Source: Chitinophagaceae bacterium
Lineage (GTDB): Bacteria; Bacteroidota; Bacteroidia; Chitinophagales; Chitinophagaceae
Direction: 5' to 3'
Assembly (NCBI GenBank): GCA_027486835.1
Contig: JAIXOJ010000198.1
Span: forward strand, 1 to 64,000
Length of the DNA stretch: 64,000 nt
The notes under the pieces were generated by a model, which made no database searches, was not told the origin of the DNA, and saw only the letters and a list, made by a program, of their open reading frames with translations. Position numbers and translations under genes: made by a program. Below are positions 13,979 through 59,090 of the stretch, piece after piece (within the stretch, counting starts at the first letter, position 1; each line of letters begins with the position of its first letter).

Positions 13979-14593
13979 GGCATCTGTACAAGAATTTATG
14001 GCATCGTAAAAATTACGGTGGCATCTGTACAAGAATTTATTGGTCGGCAAATTTTTCCGAGGTTTCTGTATAAGAATTTACTGGTCGGCAAATTTTTCCG
14101 AGGTATCTGTACAAGAATTTATTGGTCGGCAAATTTTTCCGAGGCATCCGTACATGAATTTATCGGTCGGCAAATTTTTCCAAGGCATCTGTACAAGAAT
14201 TTATGGCATTGTAAATTTTTTCCGAGGCATCCGTACAAGAATTTATCGGTCGGCAAATTTTTCCGAGACATCTGTACAAGAATTTATCGTTTGGCAAATT
14301 TTTCCAAGGCATCTGTACAAGAATTTATGGCATCGTAAATTTTTTCCGAGGCATCTGTACAAGAATTTATCGTTCGGCAAATTTTTCCGAGGCATCCGTA
14401 CAAGAATTTATCGTTCGGCAAATTTTTCCGAGGCATCTGTACAAGAATTTATGGCATTGTAAATTTTTTCCGAGGCATCTGTACAAGAATTTACTGGTCG
14501 GCAAATTTTTCCGAGGCATCTGTACAAGAATTTACTAGTTGGCAAATTTTTCCGAGACACATGTAAGTGAATTTTTAGGCTGGTAAATAATGC
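13979..14593. repeat. 41-bp tandem minisatellite, about 14 full copies plus a decayed one
   Basis: Units begin GTACAAGAAT at 13986, 14027, 14068 and so on. Most are 41 bp (core GGTCGGCAAATTTTTCCGAG); a second class of mostly 42 bp reads GGCATCGTAAATTTTTTCCG at units 1, 6, 9 and 12. The last three intervals form a 124-bp higher-order repeat. Every part of the unit is repeated, so it is not a CRISPR. Because 41 is not a multiple of three, the stop-free frames across it are artefacts. It ends about 195 bp before the gene at 14788. Confidence 0.95.
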
Positions 14594-14717
14594 TGGGTTA
14601 CATAATTCTTTTACTTCCTATTGCAAATATGGTATCGTATTATTTCTATAGGTAAAATAATCGGCTTTTTGAATGTAATTGTTATTTTTTTATAAAAATC
14701 TGAAAATGATGGGGTTG

Positions 14718-14751
14718 TTTGTAGAAAATTTATCTTTGATTATTATTTTTG
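14718..14751 (+). promoter_or_regulatory. Bacteroidota-type promoter
   Basis: TTTG at 14718-14721 and TATTTTTG (TAnnTTTG) at 14744-14751 with a 22-bp spacer. The expected transcript start is about 30 bp before the ATG at 14788. It lies between the minisatellite and the gene. Confidence 0.55.
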
Positions 14752-14787
14752 CACTAAATCAATCATTTTTATTCAAATCAGTTAATT

Positions 14788-15756
14788 ATGCTTTTCTTTG
14801 AAAAACTATTCGAACCTTTCTTTGATAATGATCGCATTACGGATGCACGAATTTACAATTTTTGTAATTATACCTTAATCCGAATGCGTACTGGCAATGG
14901 AACTGGTATTTACTCAGACTTTATTGCTATACTTGATAAGCCTACCCAAGCGATGTATTTAGCCATTTCAAGTTTAGATACGGGTACCAATATTCAAATT
15001 GGTAAGACCAAAACAAATGATCAGGTGTTGGCTGCTTTCAAAGCTAAAATGAGTGATGAACAAAGCATTATTGCCAAAAGCTTGGGCGGTAAAAACAAAC
15101 CTGAATTTTTAGAATTTTATCCACATAAGGGTACTGAATACTCTAAAGCTACCAAAGAACAAATGCCCATATTGGTAAAAAGGGTAGCGGATGCCGCAAC
15201 AAAATATGAAACAAAAATTGGTAAAACCTTAGCCAATGAACTGAGACAATTACAAACCGATTGGAATAATAGCAGAGATAGTCAAACTACCCAAATTGCT
15301 GCGGTGGGCGATCAAAAAGTAATCAAGTCAAAAACAAGGATTGAATTAGAGGATGCTATTAAATTGGTATTGTTAGAATTAGCAAAGTTGTTCATGGACA
15401 AACCAGGGTTATATAAGCAGTTTATAAAACCTTCTTTGTTATACCCAAGTGGTAAAAACGTGAAATCGGTTAATTACAATGGTACAACTGACCCAGAAGC
15501 AGTTTCTGTTGTATTTCACGATAATATTAGTGATGATGCTGAAATTAGTATCAAAATTACCAGTATTGATACAGAGGCTATTCTTTATATTGGGGAATCA
15601 CCCACAGAAAAGCCAACAGCAGTAGGCAAATTATTTAGACCATCTAAAAAGTTTAGTCATTTAACTGCCATTGAGTTGGGTACAGAGGGTGGTTACTTAC
15701 TGCTTTATAATCCCAGTAAAACAGATAAAGTAGTTTGGGAAATTAAGGTGCGGTAA
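14788..15756 (+). CDS. Conserved Bacteroidota hypothetical protein (paralogue of 49625-50575)
   Basis: 322 residues, no signal peptide, no enzyme motif. The N-terminal two thirds are helical (KEQMPILVKRVADAATKYET); the last third is a beta-rich domain ending YLLLYNPSKTDKVVWEIKV. A characteristic stretch, FLEFYPHKGTEYSKAT, is the best family landmark. I know this family only as uncharacterised proteins of Chitinophagaceae-type genomes. A diverged paralogue with the same architecture occurs at 49625-50575. Both follow a 41- or 42-bp minisatellite. The gene is 27 bp upstream of a lipoprotein gene and probably cotranscribed with it. Function unknown. Confidence 0.88.
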   Translation: MLFFEKLFEPFFDNDRITDARIYNFCNYTLIRMRTGNGTGIYSDFIAILDKPTQAMYLAISSLDTGTNIQIGKTKTNDQVLAAFKAKMSDEQSIIAKSLGGKNKPEFLEFYPHKGTEYSKATKEQMPILVKRVADAATKYETKIGKTLANELRQLQTDWNNSRDSQTTQIAAVGDQKVIKSKTRIELEDAIKLVLLELAKLFMDKPGLYKQFIKPSLLYPSGKNVKSVNYNGTTDPEAVSVVFHDNISDDAEISIKITSIDTEAILYIGESPTEKPTAVGKLFRPSKKFSHLTAIELGTEGGYLLLYNPSKTDKVVWEIKVR

Positions 15757-23283: not shown

Positions 23284-25698
23284 ATGGAGAATTCAAGATA
23301 TAAAAAGACTACGGAGACAGAAGCATTTGATGTGAAAAAAATTTTGGGTCAAATGATTTCACATTTGCCTCTTTTTATCTTTTCGATTATTATCTGTGTC
23401 GTTATTGCGTATAGCTATATGCGTTACACAACACCTATGTATAAGATACATAGCAAGATATTGGTTGCTGATAATGATAAAGGTGGGTCATCTCTATCGT
23501 TTGCCGAAAATGTGATACCAGATTTTAGCTCTCTACTCGGCATCAAAAGCAGTGTAGATAATGAAGCTGAAATATTGAAAACATACGATTTAATGGAGAA
23601 GGTTGTGCGCAATCTCAATTTAAATGTATCTTATTATATAGACGGGAGGGTACATAGTGTTGAAATTTTTGACAATATTCCTTTTGCATTAAAATTAGTT
23701 TCTATTTCGGATTCACTTAAATCTTTTACATTAAATCTAGATCTTCAAAAGGATGGGACAATTAAATTAATTGATAAGGATAAGAACTTTCAAATTAAAT
23801 CTAAATTCAACGATACTATCAATTATAAAAGTTGCAAGTTTTTTCTTATAAATAATGGACTCCCTTTTTCAAACAATAAATATCAGTTCAAAGTATCATC
23901 AATAGATGAAACAGTTGAGGAGTATGAGAAAAATACTGATATAATTGTTGTAAACAAACAAGTTTCTATAATTGATATTGGACTCAAAATCAATATCCCA
24001 AGGAAAGGTGAGATAGTTTTAAAAACACTAACTGATGAATATTTAAAGGTAAATCTTGATGACAAAAATCGAATAGCAGACAGTACAATTGCGTTCATTA
24101 ATGATCGAATTGAAATTGTTAGTTCTGAATTGAATGCAATAGAGGGTGAAATTCAAGGGTTTAAACAAGAAAATAATATTGCAAATATTTCAGAGCAATC
24201 AAAACTTTTATTGGATAATGCTTCGGAATTAGATAAAAACTCAAATAAGGTAGAGTTGATGATAAGTGTTAACGAGAATATGGAATCTTATCTCAAAGAC
24301 AGGAGAAATTTCAATAGACCTGTACCTAACATGATATCTGATGATCCTTCATTTTTAGCTTTGGCTGATAAATATAATACCTTGCAAATTCAAAAAGATC
24401 GATATGGCCTAACAAACACCGAAAAAAATCCAGTAATAGAAAACCTAAACATTCAGATTGCCAACCTAAGGGAGGATTTAATCAAGCATTTACAACGCCA
24501 AAAAAGTTCGCTTTTTATTGAAAGAAAGAAAAACGAAACATTAGGTACTTATTATAGTCGCATAATAAAGAAGGTACCGGCGGAAGAAAGATCTTTTCTT
24601 TCTCTTTCTCGCACGCAGGCTTTAAAACAAGAGTTATATTTATTCTTACTTAAGAAAAAGGAAGAAATGTTTGTTACAAAGGCTTCGAATATTCCAAGTG
24701 CAAGAGTTATTGATAGGCCTAAATCTGAAACTACTGCATATAGCCCGAAAAAAGGGATGATTATTTTAAGTGGGCTTTTTATAGGTCTTGTTCTACCATT
24801 TATTTTGCTGAACTTAAAGAATGCACTTAATAATAAAGTTTCTAGTAGAAATGACATAGAGTATTTGACGGACGCAACTATTTTGTCAGAAATCTCACAT
24901 AATTCTAATAATAACAATAAAGTTTTAGTAATTGATGAAAATTCACGTAGTATTATTGCTGAACAGTTTAGATCTTTAAGAACCAATCTACAGTTTGTAT
25001 TAAGCAAAGACAAAGAACATTCATCAATTCTTTTTACATCAAGTATGAGTGGTGAAGGCAAATCGTTTATTGCTCTAAATCTTGCAAATTCTTACGCAAT
25101 TACTGGTAAAAAAGTAGTATTGATGGAATTAGATTTACGTAAGCCAAAATTATCTCAGAATTTGGGGATATCAAACGATAAAGGGTTTACAAATTATTCT
25201 GCTGCAAAGTTATCTATAGATGATGTTATTGTTCCATCTGGAATCAATCCGAACTTGTTTTTAGTTCAATCTGGTCCTATACCACCTAATCCCTCAGAGT
25301 TATTGGTTAGTGAACGAGCATTAAAATTATACATTGAATTAAAGAGAAGATTTGATATTGTCATTTTTGATATGCCTCCAATTGGATTAGTAACTGATGC
25401 ACAAATTCTTGCTCCTTATGCAGATGCAGCGATTTATGTAATTAGGCAAAATTACACTTTCAAAGAGCAACTTGGAATAATTAATGACATAAAAGAAAAC
25501 AGCAAGTTCAATAATTTTTATTTGCTTGTAAATGACGTTAAGAGAGGTAATGGTTATGGATACGGTTATGGTTATGGCTATGGTTATGGTTATGGTTATG
25601 GCTACAGCTATGGATATGGATATGGATATGGAACCGAAACTAAAAAGAAAAAAGGAATATTGAATTTTATAAAAAAACAATTCATTTCTAAATCATGA
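23284..25698 (+). CDS. Polysaccharide co-polymerase and BY-type tyrosine kinase (Wzc-like)
   Basis: 804 residues from the ATG at 23284; a TTG 21 bp upstream is in frame but less likely. A Wzz domain with transmembrane helix (about 25-45) and a long coiled-coil periplasmic part (about 270-440) ends in a second helix (about 490-510). The cytoplasmic kinase carries Walker A MSGEGKS (about 586-592), Walker A' LMELDLRKPKL and Walker B VIFDMPP (about 693-699). The C-terminal tyrosine cluster is an extended Gly-Tyr repeat. It should control chain length and export by cyclic autophosphorylation with the OPX partner. No cognate phosphatase gene is visible nearby. It overlaps the next gene by 4 bp. Confidence 0.94.
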   Translation: MENSRYKKTTETEAFDVKKILGQMISHLPLFIFSIIICVVIAYSYMRYTTPMYKIHSKILVADNDKGGSSLSFAENVIPDFSSLLGIKSSVDNEAEILKTYDLMEKVVRNLNLNVSYYIDGRVHSVEIFDNIPFALKLVSISDSLKSFTLNLDLQKDGTIKLIDKDKNFQIKSKFNDTINYKSCKFFLINNGLPFSNNKYQFKVSSIDETVEEYEKNTDIIVVNKQVSIIDIGLKINIPRKGEIVLKTLTDEYLKVNLDDKNRIADSTIAFINDRIEIVSSELNAIEGEIQGFKQENNIANISEQSKLLLDNASELDKNSNKVELMISVNENMESYLKDRRNFNRPVPNMISDDPSFLALADKYNTLQIQKDRYGLTNTEKNPVIENLNIQIANLREDLIKHLQRQKSSLFIERKKNETLGTYYSRIIKKVPAEERSFLSLSRTQALKQELYLFLLKKKEEMFVTKASNIPSARVIDRPKSETTAYSPKKGMIILSGLFIGLVLPFILLNLKNALNNKVSSRNDIEYLTDATILSEISHNSNNNNKVLVIDENSRSIIAEQFRSLRTNLQFVLSKDKEHSSILFTSSMSGEGKSFIALNLANSYAITGKKVVLMELDLRKPKLSQNLGISNDKGFTNYSAAKLSIDDVIVPSGINPNLFLVQSGPIPPNPSELLVSERALKLYIELKRRFDIVIFDMPPIGLVTDAQILAPYADAAIYVIRQNYTFKEQLGIINDIKENSKFNNFYLLVNDVKRGNGYGYGYGYGYGYGYGYGYSYGYGYGYGTETKKKKGILNFIKKQFISKS
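25549..25632 (+). repeat. In-frame hexanucleotide repeat GGNTAT coding the Gly-Tyr tail
   Basis: About 14 copies of a 6-bp unit (GGTTAT / GGATAT / GGCTAT) in the kinase gene, giving alternating Gly and Tyr with one Ser. Unit loss or gain keeps the frame and would change the number of phosphorylatable tyrosines. Confidence 0.9.
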
Positions 25699-45171: not shown

Positions 45172-47310
45172 CTATTTCCAACTTAAATACACAGTAGCGG
45201 TAATGCCATTTTGTGTAAGAGTTATTGATGATGGGTAAGGATTGGGTAATGTTATGTAATTTGAAATCTTAAAACGTACAGATCCAGCATAATCATGTGG
45301 ATCTAAGGTGTCAAAATCCCATAAATCAATGTCAATACTGGAATAGAAATTATTAATTCCATTTACAGTGTAAGCAGGTGATAAATACCAACCCACTGGT
45401 AACATAGAAGTAGTGATATCGCTTATTCTTGCACCAGAACCATTATACTTAATTACATTAGCGGAATCAGTTAAATTAATAAAAAAATCAGGCCCATTAA
45501 AAGGATCCCAAGTACTTCCCCCATCGGTAAGTGGATAATTTGATATAACCACCTGAGTAATTGTTGCTGAGGTATAGGCATCCCCAACGTTAACAAGTTT
45601 GTATGTAGTGCTAGAACCACTTAAATTAGTAACAACAAGTTTTACAAGATAAAAGCCACCATTATAATAGGCGTGGCTTGGATTTTTGGAGGTTGAGGTC
45701 GTATTATCGCCAAAATCCCAGAAGTAAGTACTGCCATTTGTTGAGGTGTTTGTGAAGCCAATATTCACGGGAGCAACAGAACCTGAACCACTAACATTAA
45801 AACTTGCGGTAGGGATAACTGAGGCTATAAAGATTGTCGTTGTAATCACGCTACTATCCCCAGTACTATAGGCTGTTAAACGAACTGTATAAATTCCGCC
45901 TACTTTATAAATGTGCGTAGGGGATGCTGTTGTAGAGTTTGTGCTGTCTCCAAAATCCCATAAATAGGAAGAAGCATTAGTTGATGAATTGACAAATGTT
46001 ACTGTATCAGGTGCTTGATTTATTCCTTTATAGCTAAACCTTGCTATAGGTGCAGGATTTGTCCATGTAGGTACACTTGAACTATTCATTTGTAAATACT
46101 GCCCACTTGCTCCAACTGAAATAGTATCCCATTGAGTTCCTGTCCAATAAAGCATTCCTCCTTTTTTATTACCAATTGTACTCAAAAACCCTTTTGGCCC
46201 TCTCACATTTCCAGTATTCAAAACCTGCCCATTGCTTAACGTAACAAACAAAGAATCGCCCGTTACTTTAGAGTTGGTGATACTAACACCATCTTTTCCA
46301 GCCGCACCAGTTGCTCCTTGGATTCCTTGAACACCTTGGTCACCCTTTATACCCTGAATCCCCTGCAAGCCTCTTGCACCACTATCACCTTTTGGCCCAG
46401 TTGCACCTTGGATTCCTTGAATCCCTTGGTCACCTTTTATTCCCTGAATCCCTTGAATCCCCTGCAATCCTCTTGCGCCACTATCACCTTTTGGCCCAGT
46501 TGCCCCTTGTATTCCTTGAATCCCTTGGTCACCTTTAATACCCTGAATCCCTTGAATCCCCTGTAATCCTCTTGCACCACTATCACCTTTTGGCCCAGTT
46601 GCACCTTGAATTCCTTGAATCCCTTGGTCACCTTTTATACCCTGAATCCCTTGAATACCCTGCAAACCTTTTGCGCCACTATCGCCTTTTGGCCCAGTTG
46701 CGCCTTGGATTCCTTGGTCACCCTTTACTCCCTGAATACCTTGAATACCCTGTAATCCTCTTGCACCACTATCGCCTTTTGGCCCTCTTACATAGCCAGC
46801 ATTTTGCACCTGGCCATCTGTCAAGGTAATTTTTAAGGAATCGCCCACCACTTTTGTTTGGCTGATGCCAGTGGGGGTGGTGCCGCCTGTGCTGCTGCCG
46901 CTTTTGAAGGCGTACAACGCATAAGGTACGCTCAATAGTTGCTGCGTACTCATGGTGAGGTAATTGGTATTAGTGCCTGTGGTGTCAATGTCTATCTGCA
47001 TAAACTTAGCATTGCCACCCCAATTAATATTGGCAAAATTGCCCGAAAGGGTAGTGCCTGCACCAATAGTGGCACTGAACAAACCCAATATATTGGTGGT
47101 GAGGTTGTGCTGTTCGCTGTACACCACCGTGCCAGTAGCAATACTGTCTCGTACAAAGAATTTCACATTAATGGGTTGGTTAATAATGGGTGCGCCATTG
47201 CTACTGCGGGCTACGGCTTGGTAGGGGAGGCCTGATTGGGCAAAAAGCGTATTGCCTACCAATAAAGCAAAAACAAGAACGGTGAAAAACTGGTAAAACT
47301 GCTGTTTCAT
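45172..47310 (-). CDS. Collagen-like and PKD-domain surface protein
   Basis: 712 residues from the ATG at 47310 (MKQQFYQFF); a TTG 15 bp earlier is in frame. Signal peptide ending LFAQ, a conserved N-terminal domain (about 25-130: GLPYQAVAR, QLLSVPYALYA) found on many Bacteroidota fibre proteins, a collagen-like Gly-X-Y region (about 175-350) built of 33-residue units, a short spacer, two PKD domains (LWDFGDST and FWDFGDNT) and a C-terminal beta domain without a T9SS motif. Collagen-like triple helices suggest a trimeric extracellular fibre. It starts 22 bp after the dockerin/cohesin gene and is probably cotranscribed with it. Confidence 0.9.
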   Translation of the reverse strand: MKQQFYQFFTVLVFALLVGNTLFAQSGLPYQAVARSSNGAPIINQPINVKFFVRDSIATGTVVYSEQHNLTTNILGLFSATIGAGTTLSGNFANINWGGNAKFMQIDIDTTGTNTNYLTMSTQQLLSVPYALYAFKSGSSTGGTTPTGISQTKVVGDSLKITLTDGQVQNAGYVRGPKGDSGARGLQGIQGIQGVKGDQGIQGATGPKGDSGAKGLQGIQGIQGIKGDQGIQGIQGATGPKGDSGARGLQGIQGIQGIKGDQGIQGIQGATGPKGDSGARGLQGIQGIQGIKGDQGIQGIQGATGPKGDSGARGLQGIQGIKGDQGVQGIQGATGAAGKDGVSITNSKVTGDSLFVTLSNGQVLNTGNVRGPKGFLSTIGNKKGGMLYWTGTQWDTISVGASGQYLQMNSSSVPTWTNPAPIARFSYKGINQAPDTVTFVNSSTNASSYLWDFGDSTNSTTASPTHIYKVGGIYTVRLTAYSTGDSSVITTTIFIASVIPTASFNVSGSGSVAPVNIGFTNTSTNGSTYFWDFGDNTTSTSKNPSHAYYNGGFYLVKLVVTNLSGSSTTYKLVNVGDAYTSATITQVVISNYPLTDGGSTWDPFNGPDFFINLTDSANVIKYNGSGARISDITTSMLPVGWYLSPAYTVNGINNFYSSIDIDLWDFDTLDPHDYAGSVRFKISNYITLPNPYPSSITLTQNGITATVYLSWK
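46311..46790 (-). repeat. 99-bp coding repeats of the collagen-like region
   Basis: About four to five near-identical 99-bp units, each coding 11 Gly-X-Y triplets (GPKGDSGARGLQGIQGIQGI...). The plus strand also stays open here, which explains several long antisense frames that are not genes. Confidence 0.88.
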
Positions 47311-47332
47311 AAAAAGTAATTTCAATGATTAA

Positions 47333-48852: not shown

Positions 48853-49131
48853 ATAATTGCTTTGGAAACCAGAAATTTTTTTCAAACAACTTGAAAAATT
48901 TATTTTGAAATTACGCAATAGAGGGGTTTTGCCACGAATACACGAATGATGGCTTTGTGTGGTAATAGGTAATTATAGGGGAGTGATAAAAGCGGTATTT
49001 ATTCAGCGATGATAAAAAATACAGCAACAAAATGGGTAAAAATCAAGCAGTAAGCGGCATCTGCAACAAAAGGGTCTCAGAAAAAAATGGGTACTAGGTA
49101 ACTGCCTTGCGAAAAAGTTTTTTGAAAAACT
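48853..49131. other. Intergenic stretch with one dispersed GCCACGAAT repeat
   Basis: Holds GCCACGAATACACGAATGAT at 48931-48950, one member of a short repeat family also found near 54060, 54140, 57850 and 58320. Otherwise nothing recognised. Confidence 0.5.
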
Positions 49132-49465
49132 GGTACGTAGCACGTGCCACGACCCAGTTTTCTAAAATAAAATGGTACGTAGCACGTGCTATGACAGGGT
49201 TTTGAAAAAAAACTGGTACGTAGCACGTGCTATGACAGGGTTTTTAAAAATAAACTGGTACGTAGCACGTGCCACGACCTAGTTTTCTAAAATAAAGTGG
49301 TACGTAGCACGTGCTACGTACCACTTTTCTAAAATAAACTGGCACGTAGCACGTGCTACGACCCAGTTTTCTAAAATAAAATGGTACGTGGCACGTGCTA
49401 TGATAGGGTTTCCAAAAAAAAACTGGTACGTAGCACGTGCCACGACCCATTTTTTTGAAAACAAA
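49132..49465. repeat. 42-bp tandem minisatellite with palindromic core, 8 copies
   Basis: Units begin GGTACGTAGCACGTG at 49132, 49174, 49215, 49257, 49299, 49341, 49383 and 49425. The core GTAGCACGTGCTAC is a perfect 14-bp palindrome around CACGTG in most copies, followed by an AT-rich spacer such as TTTTCTAAAATAAA. It is not a CRISPR because the spacers are also repeated. It ends about 160 bp before the gene at 49625. Confidence 0.95.
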
Positions 49466-49624
49466 AAACGGTTGATAGTAATTTTATGACATGGGTTATC
49501 AAGTAAAATGGATGAAGTAAAAAAAATTTTCGATTTTTTTACAATAACCTGTTTGTTTTAAGAAAAATCCTTTCTTTTGTGGTCGATATTCCATGTACTT
49601 AACGTTAAAATCTCCTTTCGGGTT

Positions 49625-50575
49625 ATGTGGCCTCGCGCAGAAAATTTTATTCTCTATTTAACTGACGGCAATTATTTCAAAGCAAAAGCAATTTTTGGCC
49701 GTCACGATTCTATGTTGGAAGCAGGTGTTGCCGATAAAGACATCAACACGATTTTTACCTTCTTCCATCCTTTTTATGTCAGTTACGATAATATTTACCA
49801 AACTTGGTCTGCCTTGCGCAGCAGCAACTCAGGCAATACTAAAGCAGTTGTAAATTTGGTAGAGGAGCTTTCTGGAATCCAAATAAGAAAGTGGGATGTA
49901 GCCATTCAAGGTGTTTTTGACCTGAATTCTATTGAGTATAAAAAAATATTGCCCAACCGTCGCAAGCCGTTTCAAAACGGAAGTGTAAGCAATAGAGTAA
50001 TAGAATTGGGCAACTTATCCGTTGCTTTAGGAAAAATATCCGCTTTAGACCCAGTTGCAAAGCAAGTGGCCGCCTTTTTGGATGATATGAAAAGTGCTAT
50101 CAAGGTGCAAAAAACCCAGATGACGCAAATAGACAGTATTGCTGTTGCTTTAGAAGTGGCTCGTGTGGACGCTGCTGAGGCCATGTTTAAGGATTATGGA
50201 AGTTGCATAGCAAAGTTTTACAAAACCCCTGTTGCTATTGAAACCTATTTCCCTGTTGCGTTGCTTACTTCTAAATCTCAAGCTACATTTACCATTACGC
50301 TTGAGGATACGTTGCCAGAATTGTTGTTCAAACGCAAATTGGATGCAAAAAAGAAATTGAGTGTTATCAATTATGGCGAAAAACCCATTCAGTTGTATTT
50401 TACCAATGGTTTAAACAAACTGCCCGCAACAGGCCAAACGCCAGGTATCGTTCAAGGAAAGGATAAAGTAGAAATTAATCCTGCTGATATTTTTTATTCC
50501 GACACCAATCGTAGCTTATTCATCTCCATTGCAGATGCCGGTTCCCCTGCTTATGTAGAGGTAACTATCATATAA
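49625..50575 (+). CDS. Conserved Bacteroidota hypothetical protein (paralogue of 14788-15756)
   Basis: 316 residues from the ATG at 49625; the frame is open to a TTG at 49577, but a promoter-like TTTG / TTCTTTTG pair lies at 49552-49579 and family members start near the later Met. Helical N-terminal region (RKWDVAIQGVFDLNSIEY), a landmark EYKKILPNRRKPFQNGSVSN that aligns with FLEFYPHKGTEYSKAT of the paralogue, then a beta domain ending SLFISIADAGSPAYVEVTII. No enzyme motif. As with its paralogue, a minisatellite lies directly upstream. A terminator follows 18 bp after the stop. Function unknown. Confidence 0.87.
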   Translation: MWPRAENFILYLTDGNYFKAKAIFGRHDSMLEAGVADKDINTIFTFFHPFYVSYDNIYQTWSALRSSNSGNTKAVVNLVEELSGIQIRKWDVAIQGVFDLNSIEYKKILPNRRKPFQNGSVSNRVIELGNLSVALGKISALDPVAKQVAAFLDDMKSAIKVQKTQMTQIDSIAVALEVARVDAAEAMFKDYGSCIAKFYKTPVAIETYFPVALLTSKSQATFTITLEDTLPELLFKRKLDAKKKLSVINYGEKPIQLYFTNGLNKLPATGQTPGIVQGKDKVEINPADIFYSDTNRSLFISIADAGSPAYVEVTII

Positions 50576-53621: not shown

Positions 53622-53997
53622 TTCTGTAAAATATTTGATTGTAACTGAATTGTTACTATGCAAAGGTGGCGGCTTATTGGGGCAGCACTATTATACCCCG
53701 CCAAGTAAAATTTACATCAATCCTAGTGTACATCCACATGCGTAAGTTATTTGCTGCAGCTTAACTTTAATTAGAGTTTATAGGGGCGGTACTGAAGGTC
53801 AGACCCTGTATAATAATGCGTCATGATTGCAAATGTCTTAGCACTTGGTACTTTGATAGAATCAGTTCAATATTTCAAAGGCAGTTAGTCAACATTTTGA
53901 TGCCAAATCCCAAATCCCCTGCTTATCAAACAGCGTAAGCAAGTTGACATTTTTTGAATTTATCTCGAAAGAAATAATAAAAAAGAGTCGTACAAGT

Positions 53998-54160
53998 GTT
54001 CGTGCCATTAGAGCGAATGCGACAATAATCTCCATAGGTAAAGAGTTAATCACCATTCGTGCATTAGTGGCATTACCTCTGTTCGTGCCATTAGAGCGAA
54101 TGCGCAATAATCTCCATAGGTAAATAGTTAATAACCATTCGTGCATTAGTGGCATTTCCC
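53998..54160. repeat. About 80-bp tandem duplication containing ATTCGTGCATTAGTGGCAT
   Basis: Two units, 53998-54080 and 54081-54160, both beginning GTTCGTGCCATTAGAGCGAA and containing AATCTCCATAGGTAAA and ATTCGTGCATTAGTGGCAT. They belong to the dispersed ATTCGTGCATTCGTGGCA family. The rest of 53622-54169 has nothing recognised. Confidence 0.85.
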
Positions 54161-58319: not shown

Positions 58320-58552
58320 TGCCACGAATGCACGAATATTTTATTGCTTATACCAATGTACAATGGTTAAGTAATATGCTTTCGTGCATAAAAAAACATT
58401 CGTTCATTCAAGGGAGTCGCAACATTCGAACATTCAAGGTATAAAAAAACATTCGCTCATTAGTGCCATTAAAAAAACATTCGCTCATTCGTGGCATTAA
58501 AAAATCATTCGTGCATTCGTGGCATAAAGGAAACATTCGTGCATCCGTGGCA
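58320..58552. repeat. Cluster of ATTCGTGCATTCGTGGCA repeats
   Basis: About seven imperfect copies of ATTCGTGCATTCGTGGCA with A-rich spacers (AAAAAAACATTCG), mostly in one direction, and one inverted copy at 58320-58336. Not a gene; not CRISPR, since the spacers are only a few A-rich bases. Confidence 0.85.
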
Positions 58553-59023: not shown

Positions 59024-59090
59024 CTTAAAACCTAAAACCTAAAACCTAAAACCTAAACCCTAAAACCTAATACTTAATACTTAAAGCCTA
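59024..59090. repeat. 7-bp CCTAAAA array abutting a stop codon
   Basis: About nine units of a heptamer (CCTAAAA, later CTTAATA) ending at the TAG stop of the 1634-residue gene. An inverted piece AGGTTTTAGG at about 58962-58972 can pair with it. Confidence 0.85.

Follow-up and report, generated by a model that had tools for sequence, protein, structure and literature searches.

In REPIN-RAYT systems, a single gene has its own adjoining cluster of repeats, copies of the same partly palindromic sequence lie at extragenic sites throughout the genome, and different copies of the gene carry different repeats (PMC3116915). Iteron and centromere arrays, such as those upstream of parAB or parMR, are direct repeats beside the gene or operon of their cognate binding protein, and these repeats likewise differ between families (PMC7671480, PMC9426499). 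In eukaryotes, satellite and centromeric DNA keeps its unit length while its sequence turns over, and is homogenized inside with decayed edges.

The pairing described here, of an uncharacterized gene family with tandem arrays of 41 or 42 bp, resembles REPIN-RAYT in that a gene has its own cluster and dispersed copies, partly palindromic in some cases, with repeats differing between gene copies. However, the family has no match to the Y1/HUH tyrosine transposases, so the defining trait of that system is not met. Furthermore, these arrays are tandem with a fixed 41/42-bp period, and a family gene has at least one to three other arrays where REPIN-RAYT genomes hold hundreds of REPs; the period is conserved but the sequence is not, and close paralogs may have unrelated arrays. 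The likeness to iteron and centromere arrays (parC, parS-like), as direct repeats beside a gene and often upstream of it, is one of position only, without binding data. Unlike in those systems, the family proteins match neither ParA, ParM, ParB or ParR nor Rep, there is no conserved neighbor in 32 loci, many paralogs share a chromosome, and array similarity is only loosely linked to protein similarity, again without binding data. CRISPR arrays are also tandem units of variable sequence near a protein gene, but in the family arrays the entire unit repeats without unique spacers, and the family proteins (neighboring genes excluded) have no significant Cas match. As in eukaryotic satellite and centromeric DNA, unit length is kept as sequence turns over, and the arrays are homogenized internally and decay at their edges; unlike satellites, these arrays are bacterial, have about five units, and each lies beside one gene of one family. 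Searches of the literature, which did not cover bioRxiv or most subscription journals, showed no description of this pairing with 41/42-bp arrays, and it appears undescribed only as firmly as such searches allow.

The window, by which we mean the whole 64,000-nucleotide stretch of DNA that was analyzed, from a Chitinophagaceae bacterium (genome G000, hereafter the source genome), contains two array-gene pairs, A and B (Table 1). The initial annotation had placed a 41-bp array before the gene at 14788 and a 42-bp array before the gene at 49625, and both are confirmed by TRF and the open reading frames. Its array ends (14593; 49132-49465) differ slightly from those of TRF (14556; 49127-49454), and its gaps of about 195 and 160 bp are close to the 231 bp (A) and 170 bp (B) that we measure from array end to ATG. 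TRF reports 14 copies for array A, with higher-order periods of 83 and 124 (41+41+42) beside 41, and the degenerate edge of this array reaches about 14593. The TRF call for array B comprises 7.8 copies of 42 bp, with a degenerate 5′ edge in a longer row that begins at 49081; its dyad score is 0.76, compared with 0.48 for shuffles. The units of the two arrays have no sequence relation to each other. The 3′ flank of array B follows the pattern ..AAAACAAA..GGTTGATAG.GATTTTAT.. shared with two gene-less copies, its own version being AATTTTAT. The ORF list begins member B at a TTG (49577); we place the start of the gene at the downstream ATG.

Table 1. Positions of the arrays, flank and genes discussed in the text (window coordinates unless a locus is named)
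Feature	Position	Strand	Description	Basis
Array A	13979..14556	+	~14 units of 41 bp (some 42), GGCATCTGTACAAGAATTTATCGGTCGGCAAATTTTTCCGA	TRF, unit split
Family member A	14788..15756	+	322 aa	ORF, profile membership, AlphaFold2 model
Array B	49081..49454	+	~8 units of 42 bp, palindromic core, consensus GGTACGTAGCACGTGCTACG	TRF
3′ flank of array B	49455..49495	+	~40 bp, common to gene-less copies C94 and C108	
Family member B	49625..50575	+	316 aa	ORF, profile membership, AlphaFold2 model
DWVP-type example	L183:15417-15572 (array) with L183:15644-16312		further loci L206-L226	

The window has other repeats as well. A collagen-like repeat protein with PKD domains (45172-47325) includes a 99-bp coding repeat (46307-46785), the third long tandem array in the window. 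Tandem repeats at 53997-54156 (82 bp) and 58421-58552 (28 bp) share an ATTCGTG..TGGCAT-like motif. The repeat at L166:8967-9244 has this motif too, and the flank of the C184 array has a less exact version; we regard these as a separate dispersed repeat. Short tandem runs of GGTTAT (6 bp, 25546-25631) and TAAAACC (7 bp, 59026-59090) are also present.

The two proteins had been described as only distantly similar, which held: BLASTP detects no similarity between A and B (E 2.2), and iterated HMMs started from either one converge on an identical set of 62 ORFs. AlphaFold2 models of A (pLDDT 93.6, pTM 0.67) and B (pLDDT 94.6, pTM 0.67) predict the same order of fold elements, specifically a short helix, a long helix, a loop, a second short helix, a second long helix, and a C-terminal beta domain. 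Comparison of 60 aligned members with Pfam, NCBIfam, PHROGs and PADLOC identified no named family (best E-value 0.0023), and a PDB profile search with the family returned a single match with E 0.95. Foldseek searches with the family models gave no meaningful whole-chain match (TMq 0.30 or less in the listed matches); the C-terminal beta domain resembles small beta folds. No known DNA-binding fold was recognized in the family proteins, and the net charge of the helical domain is near neutral (median +1, range -8 to 11).

Of 395 genomes sampled from the class, 24 have family members, the source genome included, when at most five candidates per genome are scored. A sample of 296 genomes of the phylum (at most seven candidates scored in each) yielded matches only in the source genome and one other genome of the class, plus one weak match. 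Among 99 related genomes, again counting the source genome, 14 have a match to protein A and 17 to protein B, and some of these hold many copies. The source genome itself (6.4 Mb, 219 contigs) has 14 profile matches at E<=0.1, nine of them below 1e-30, contig-end fragments included. Relatives of protein B were found neither among phage and plasmid records by tblastn nor in a search of genome contigs with protein B.

We then asked how regularly family genes are accompanied by an array. An array of period 41 or 42 (TRF score at least 100, within 500 bp of the gene) lies upstream of 93 of 109 non-redundant family genes with at least 400 bp of upstream sequence. This set was obtained by removing duplicates by N-terminal sequence, which reduced 155 genes to 119, and by dropping 10 with less than 400 bp upstream, two of which had arrays; loci from the DWVP search described below (L206-L235), ORFs under 100 aa, and genes L366 and L367 of genome G282 are not in the count. 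Under a strict script rule, 91 of the 109 have a 41/42-bp array upstream, three are flagged as period 21 and 15 have none. Window gene A and L104 were flagged 21 since TRF also lists that period, and were counted as 41/42 because their TRF rows include 41/124 and 42/125, respectively; the third, L201, is a genuine period-21 case. Downstream of family genes, a 41/42-bp array is found in only 1 of 116, and a 21-bp array in three. The controls were 387 ORFs of 200 aa or more, drawn from random contigs in only three genomes, all of the genus; 41/42-bp arrays lie upstream of five of them and downstream of five, and period-21 arrays upstream of 21 and downstream of 15. Fisher's test for the stricter 91/109 against these controls gives a p of about 4e-74, but this ignores common descent and is not a true probability: because family genes are related by descent, it overstates their independence.

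The breadth of the pairing across taxonomic families is a better argument for the association than this p-value. Outside the genus, 21 of 28 fetched loci, from eight taxonomic families other than that of the source genome, have a 41/42-bp array upstream; among the exceptions, no array reaches the threshold at L238, L239, L251 and L255, contig ends truncate L250 and L263, and the period at L258 is 21. The check that the initial annotation had proposed, enrichment of arrays upstream of other members against background, was run and strongly passed, within the genus as well as for other families belonging to the class. These results show that the gene family is associated with 41/42-bp arrays and that the usual side is upstream. 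In the first locus set, the arrays beside family genes lie 5′ of the gene, and over 56 loci the median gap from array to ATG is 145.5 bp. The upstream side is not invariable: in the near-complete genome G282, three of six family genes (L363, L366, L367) carry a 41/42-type array 3′ rather than 5′. The 15 genes without a clear 41/42-bp array include L258 and eight others (L091, L108, L284, L093, L299, L292, L239, L251) whose upstream sequence still peaks in self-similarity at lag 41/42 or a multiple, the weakest being L239, at 0.54 versus 0.49 for the next lag. The upstream regions of the remaining six (L090, L098, L131, which is a degraded gene, L238, L255 and L282) contain neither a clear nor a decayed 41/42-bp array, although L282 has one downstream.

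No neighboring gene is conserved in the 32 loci examined. The family gene itself is common to 30 of them, the members at L282 and L283 being too distant for BLAST. Single-linkage clustering by BLAST gave a second-largest cluster of 20 genes, spread over 13 of the 32 loci (221-2080 aa, 62-5811 bp from the family gene). It was considered as a partner and rejected: its matches are weak, and it collects diverse secreted proteins, mostly with an apparent sorting-signal tail.

The property shared by the arrays is their period. The primary periods of 96 upstream arrays are 41 (28), 42 (55), multiples of these (12) and 21 (1), and the median length is 5.4 units; arrays genome-wide have many periods, most often 21 (24 of 60 in control regions of the source genome). 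Averaged over 61 arrays, autocorrelation peaks only at 41 and 42 among lags 3-63, and there is no 10- or 21-bp sub-periodicity within the units of these arrays. B-DNA has about 10.5 bp per turn, so periods of 21 and 41-42 bp fit two and four turns. The sequence of the unit, in contrast to its length, is locus-specific, and units are unrelated between most loci. Similarity between random units averages 0.17, with a 95th percentile of 0.24; protein pairs at least 80% identical (over residues after 60) have unit similarities anywhere from 0.15 to 0.93, and paralogs at 86-87% identity can have arrays as unlike as random ones (L105/L092, 0.17; L076/L082, 0.15). Over 121 pairs, unit similarity tracks protein similarity loosely (rho 0.42). 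With the middle domain held constant, partial correlations are 0.04 for residues 1-35, -0.08 for residues 36-60 and 0.27 for the C-terminal domain; a weak link of the C-terminal domain to array sequence is therefore possible and cannot be excluded. An N-terminal specificity region, which one pair of orthologous loci (L242/L243, below) suggested, is not supported by the 121 pairs. The initial idea of an array that travels with the family can thus be refined: period and position travel with it, and the repeat sequence does not.

Some units are partly palindromic. Compared with shuffles, 18 of 61 units have a stem and 20 of 61 a dyad at p<0.05, such that palindromy is enriched but not universal (18/61). 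In the 63 of 93 arrays with a usable stem, mismatches are G-T in 108 cases and A-C in 99; this near equality gives no sign of selection on one RNA strand and is as for duplex DNA. One-strand RNA hairpin units, a candidate we had considered, find no support in this symmetry.

Comparison of related loci shows that unit sequence turns over fast. L241, L242 and L243 represent a single orthologous locus in three genomes from the same genus. Their outer flanks share about 93-97% identity, and between L242 and L243 both outer flanks are 95-96% identical at the DNA level. In L242 the palindromic cores of the units have changed from GTAACGnnCGTTAC to TACAnACGTnTGTA, with variants, and parts of the linkers retain unit-by-unit variants despite the new cores. 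Of the differing aligned positions between L242 and L243, 21 of 22 fall in the first 90 of 333 columns, with none after column 120; the alignment is of translated frames, in which column 90 corresponds to about residue 80 and some differences precede the start codon. A single conversion tract extending from the array to the gene start would explain this pattern. In L126/L286, one half of each unit is kept and the dyad core is replaced, and in these ortholog pairs the period and linkers are retained while cores change. Within the source genome, the C6 and C171 genes share 86.6% identity over a stretch that begins about 100 bp upstream and ends 72 bp downstream, but one has a 42-bp and the other a 41-bp array, of unrelated sequence. 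We also observed array edges that decay into degenerate 41-42-bp units (L352:8900-9500, L336:4788-5180), which look common to gene-linked and gene-less copies.

Array units also recur away from family genes. The array A unit is found again at C38 of the source genome, with no family ORF in the 9 kb fetched there, and the array B unit at C94, C108 and C109. Five further close members of this genome have their units at one to three other places each; these numbers are lower bounds, since 40 of 63 first-look candidates were scored for them. In total, all seven tested array-bearing close members of the source genome have same-unit arrays in trans. In other genomes, arrays recur in trans for two of three in G282, one of one in G461 (40 of 51 first-look candidates scored) and none of two in G183, where not all family candidates of these three genomes were scored. 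No family match was found on the contigs bearing trans copies or in the stretches fetched around them, and gene-less copies are thus shown; several lie at contig ends, however, where a gene could follow past the break, and it is uncertain how many distinct loci there are. Twelve gene-less arrays have ORFs of at least 90 aa on both sides, some perhaps spurious; five of these flanking pairs are divergent, five tandem and two convergent. Unit for unit, array B is colinear with its C94 copy, and the two have about 40 bp of 3′ flank in common; the C107 copy is part of a 700-bp segmental duplication. Two further arrays were noted in passing. A different small protein (202 aa, containing MPTKEADIL) is preceded, at a distance of 228 bp, by a 41-bp array at L347:1-301 (C117 of the source genome) that C8 and C180 also carry, and a 40-bp array with a CTGTATCAATGGTACAG-like palindrome occurs at two contig starts (L142:1-324, L160:1-204), with no gene assigned.

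A second uncharacterized family, of about 220 aa with a DWVP/DWIP N-terminus, goes with period-21 arrays, again of locus-specific sequence. Such arrays lie upstream in at least 13 of 26 DWVP-family loci with usable starts; gene starts in this count are rough, and it omits L228 and L235 from the 30 loci that were fetched, while two of the other 28 were too short. Profile comparison between the main family and the DWVP family is not significant (hhalign probability 2.4%). Proteins of about 293-319 aa beside period-21 arrays at L137:5698-5984, L170:4579-4779, L150:15273-15459 and L205:2012-2172 are distant or unconfirmed relatives of the main family; in L150 and L205 the array is downstream.

Several explanations other than the one we favor must be weighed. 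If these genomes were simply rich in arrays, the pairing could be coincidental, as the initial annotation had allowed. Arrays of period 21/42/63 are indeed common in the source genome, but 93/109 family genes against 5/387 upstream controls and 1/116 downstream, with persistence in other families, contradict coincidence and all but exclude it. The suggestion that the array belongs to the locus, for example as a regulatory, structural or recombination element, is supported as far as the link to the locus goes. Ordinary cis-regulation, with the array as upstream promoter or operator region of the gene, fits the usual side and distance (median gap 145.5 bp), yet we consider it improbable. TAnnTTTG is known as a -7 promoter motif; this motif, the only promoter type tested, is present between array and ATG in 5 of 56 loci against a shuffle mean of 7.0 and is not enriched. 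Dispersed copies also lie between convergent genes, and the 3′ arrays of three of six G282 genes argue against an obligatory upstream regulatory role, so a plain 5′ regulatory role is unsupported. An RNA-level system, in which transcription of the array yields a repeat RNA with 41-42-nt units, to which the protein binds and whose units possibly guide it to same-sequence loci in trans, would account for the loose tracking between protein and unit, the fixed unit length and the shared trans units, and about a third of units are self-complementary beyond shuffles. We nonetheless doubt it: G-T is not in excess over A-C in the stems (108 to 99), periods of 21 and 41/42 fit B-DNA, and hairpins between array and gene are not in excess (mean z -0.53 in 62 loci versus -0.41 in 120 controls, in an 80-nt window before the start codon). 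A hairpin in this gap is visible by eye in a subset of B-type loci, but not above controls.

Least likely among the remaining explanations is a recombination or diversification hot spot, in which paralogs trade their gene starts and array cores by homologous exchange at the array. The core change in L242/L243 with N-terminal differences and conserved outer flanks, and the different arrays of the 86.6% identical C6/C171 genes, would agree with it. However, the behavior is not general, as N-terminal divergence across the 121 pairs does not follow the difference between arrays; one conversion tract suffices for L242/L243, and the fixed period is left unexplained. The main rival, which remains possible, is a REPIN-like selfish satellite: an array that replicates and has been spread to intergenic sites by the product of the neighboring gene, the gene-less arrays being non-autonomous copies. 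The occurrence of a gene-adjacent founder with dispersed copies of the same unit, the positions of gene-less arrays between ORF pairs of all orientations (five divergent, five tandem, two convergent), the colinearity of array B with its C94 copy including about 40 bp of common flank, and the multiplication of paralogs within one genome are all compatible with it. Against this, no transposase, nuclease or HUH family was found in 60 members (best E 0.0023) or in the PDB search, the flanks compared have no consistent ends or target duplications, similar genes adjoin unrelated arrays, and the C107 copy is a 700-bp segmental duplicate. The fixed period is also unexplained by this rival.

The reading we favor, although we place it short of even odds at a probability of about 0.4, is a two-part module consisting of a stand-alone gene and a helically phased array whose spacing is read more than its sequence; binding, assembly and a cellular role are all inferred. 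The module would comprise the gene plus an adjacent, usually 5′, tandem array of 41 or 42 bp, which is four turns of B-DNA, and the array would act as double-stranded DNA. Copies of the protein, with their predicted long helices and beta domain, may assemble along a single helix face, four turns apart, although there are no binding data. If the protein reads chiefly repeat length and dyad arrangement, as we propose, then the sequence would be free to drift but the period would not. The arrays in trans would either serve as additional docking sites or be remnants, and the result would be a nucleoprotein structure on the chromosome with a layout like that of iteron or centromere arrays. This phased-platform reading is favored by the periods of the family arrays, which are 41/42 or multiples in 95 of 96, with one of 21, and by the exact 21-bp, two-turn arrays that accompany the different, DWVP-type family. 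Against it, the family has no known DNA-binding fold and the charge of its helical domain is close to neutral; the link between array and protein sequence is loose (rho 0.42), with paralogs at 86-87% identity beside unrelated arrays; and 6 of 109 genes have no clear or decayed array upstream, while L201 and L258 have period 21.

A bolder version, which we think unlikely, is that the protein sets the repeat length, each helical module spanning two DNA turns, and maintains or makes the arrays on which it assembles. Under this equally doubtful scaling, one-module proteins (DWVP type) would correspond to 21-bp arrays and two-module proteins (the main family) to 41/42-bp arrays. All module alignments fall close to one register but are individually weak (best probability 10%), and there is no DWVP-type model; the L137, L150 and L170 proteins, at about 293-319 aa with 21-bp arrays, speak against strict scaling. 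If true, this version would amount to a bacterial satellite-DNA system with a protein-set repeat length.

This multi-copy gene family has a non-coding DNA partner whose length is tightly constrained and whose sequence is not. The phased-platform reading would link an unknown protein fold to helically phased DNA, and could be put to a direct test in a culturable member, should there be one. It would further account for some 'minisatellites' that lie at the ends of contigs in these assemblies, and would provide a bacterial counterpart to a question posed by satellite DNA, namely why unit length outlasts sequence.
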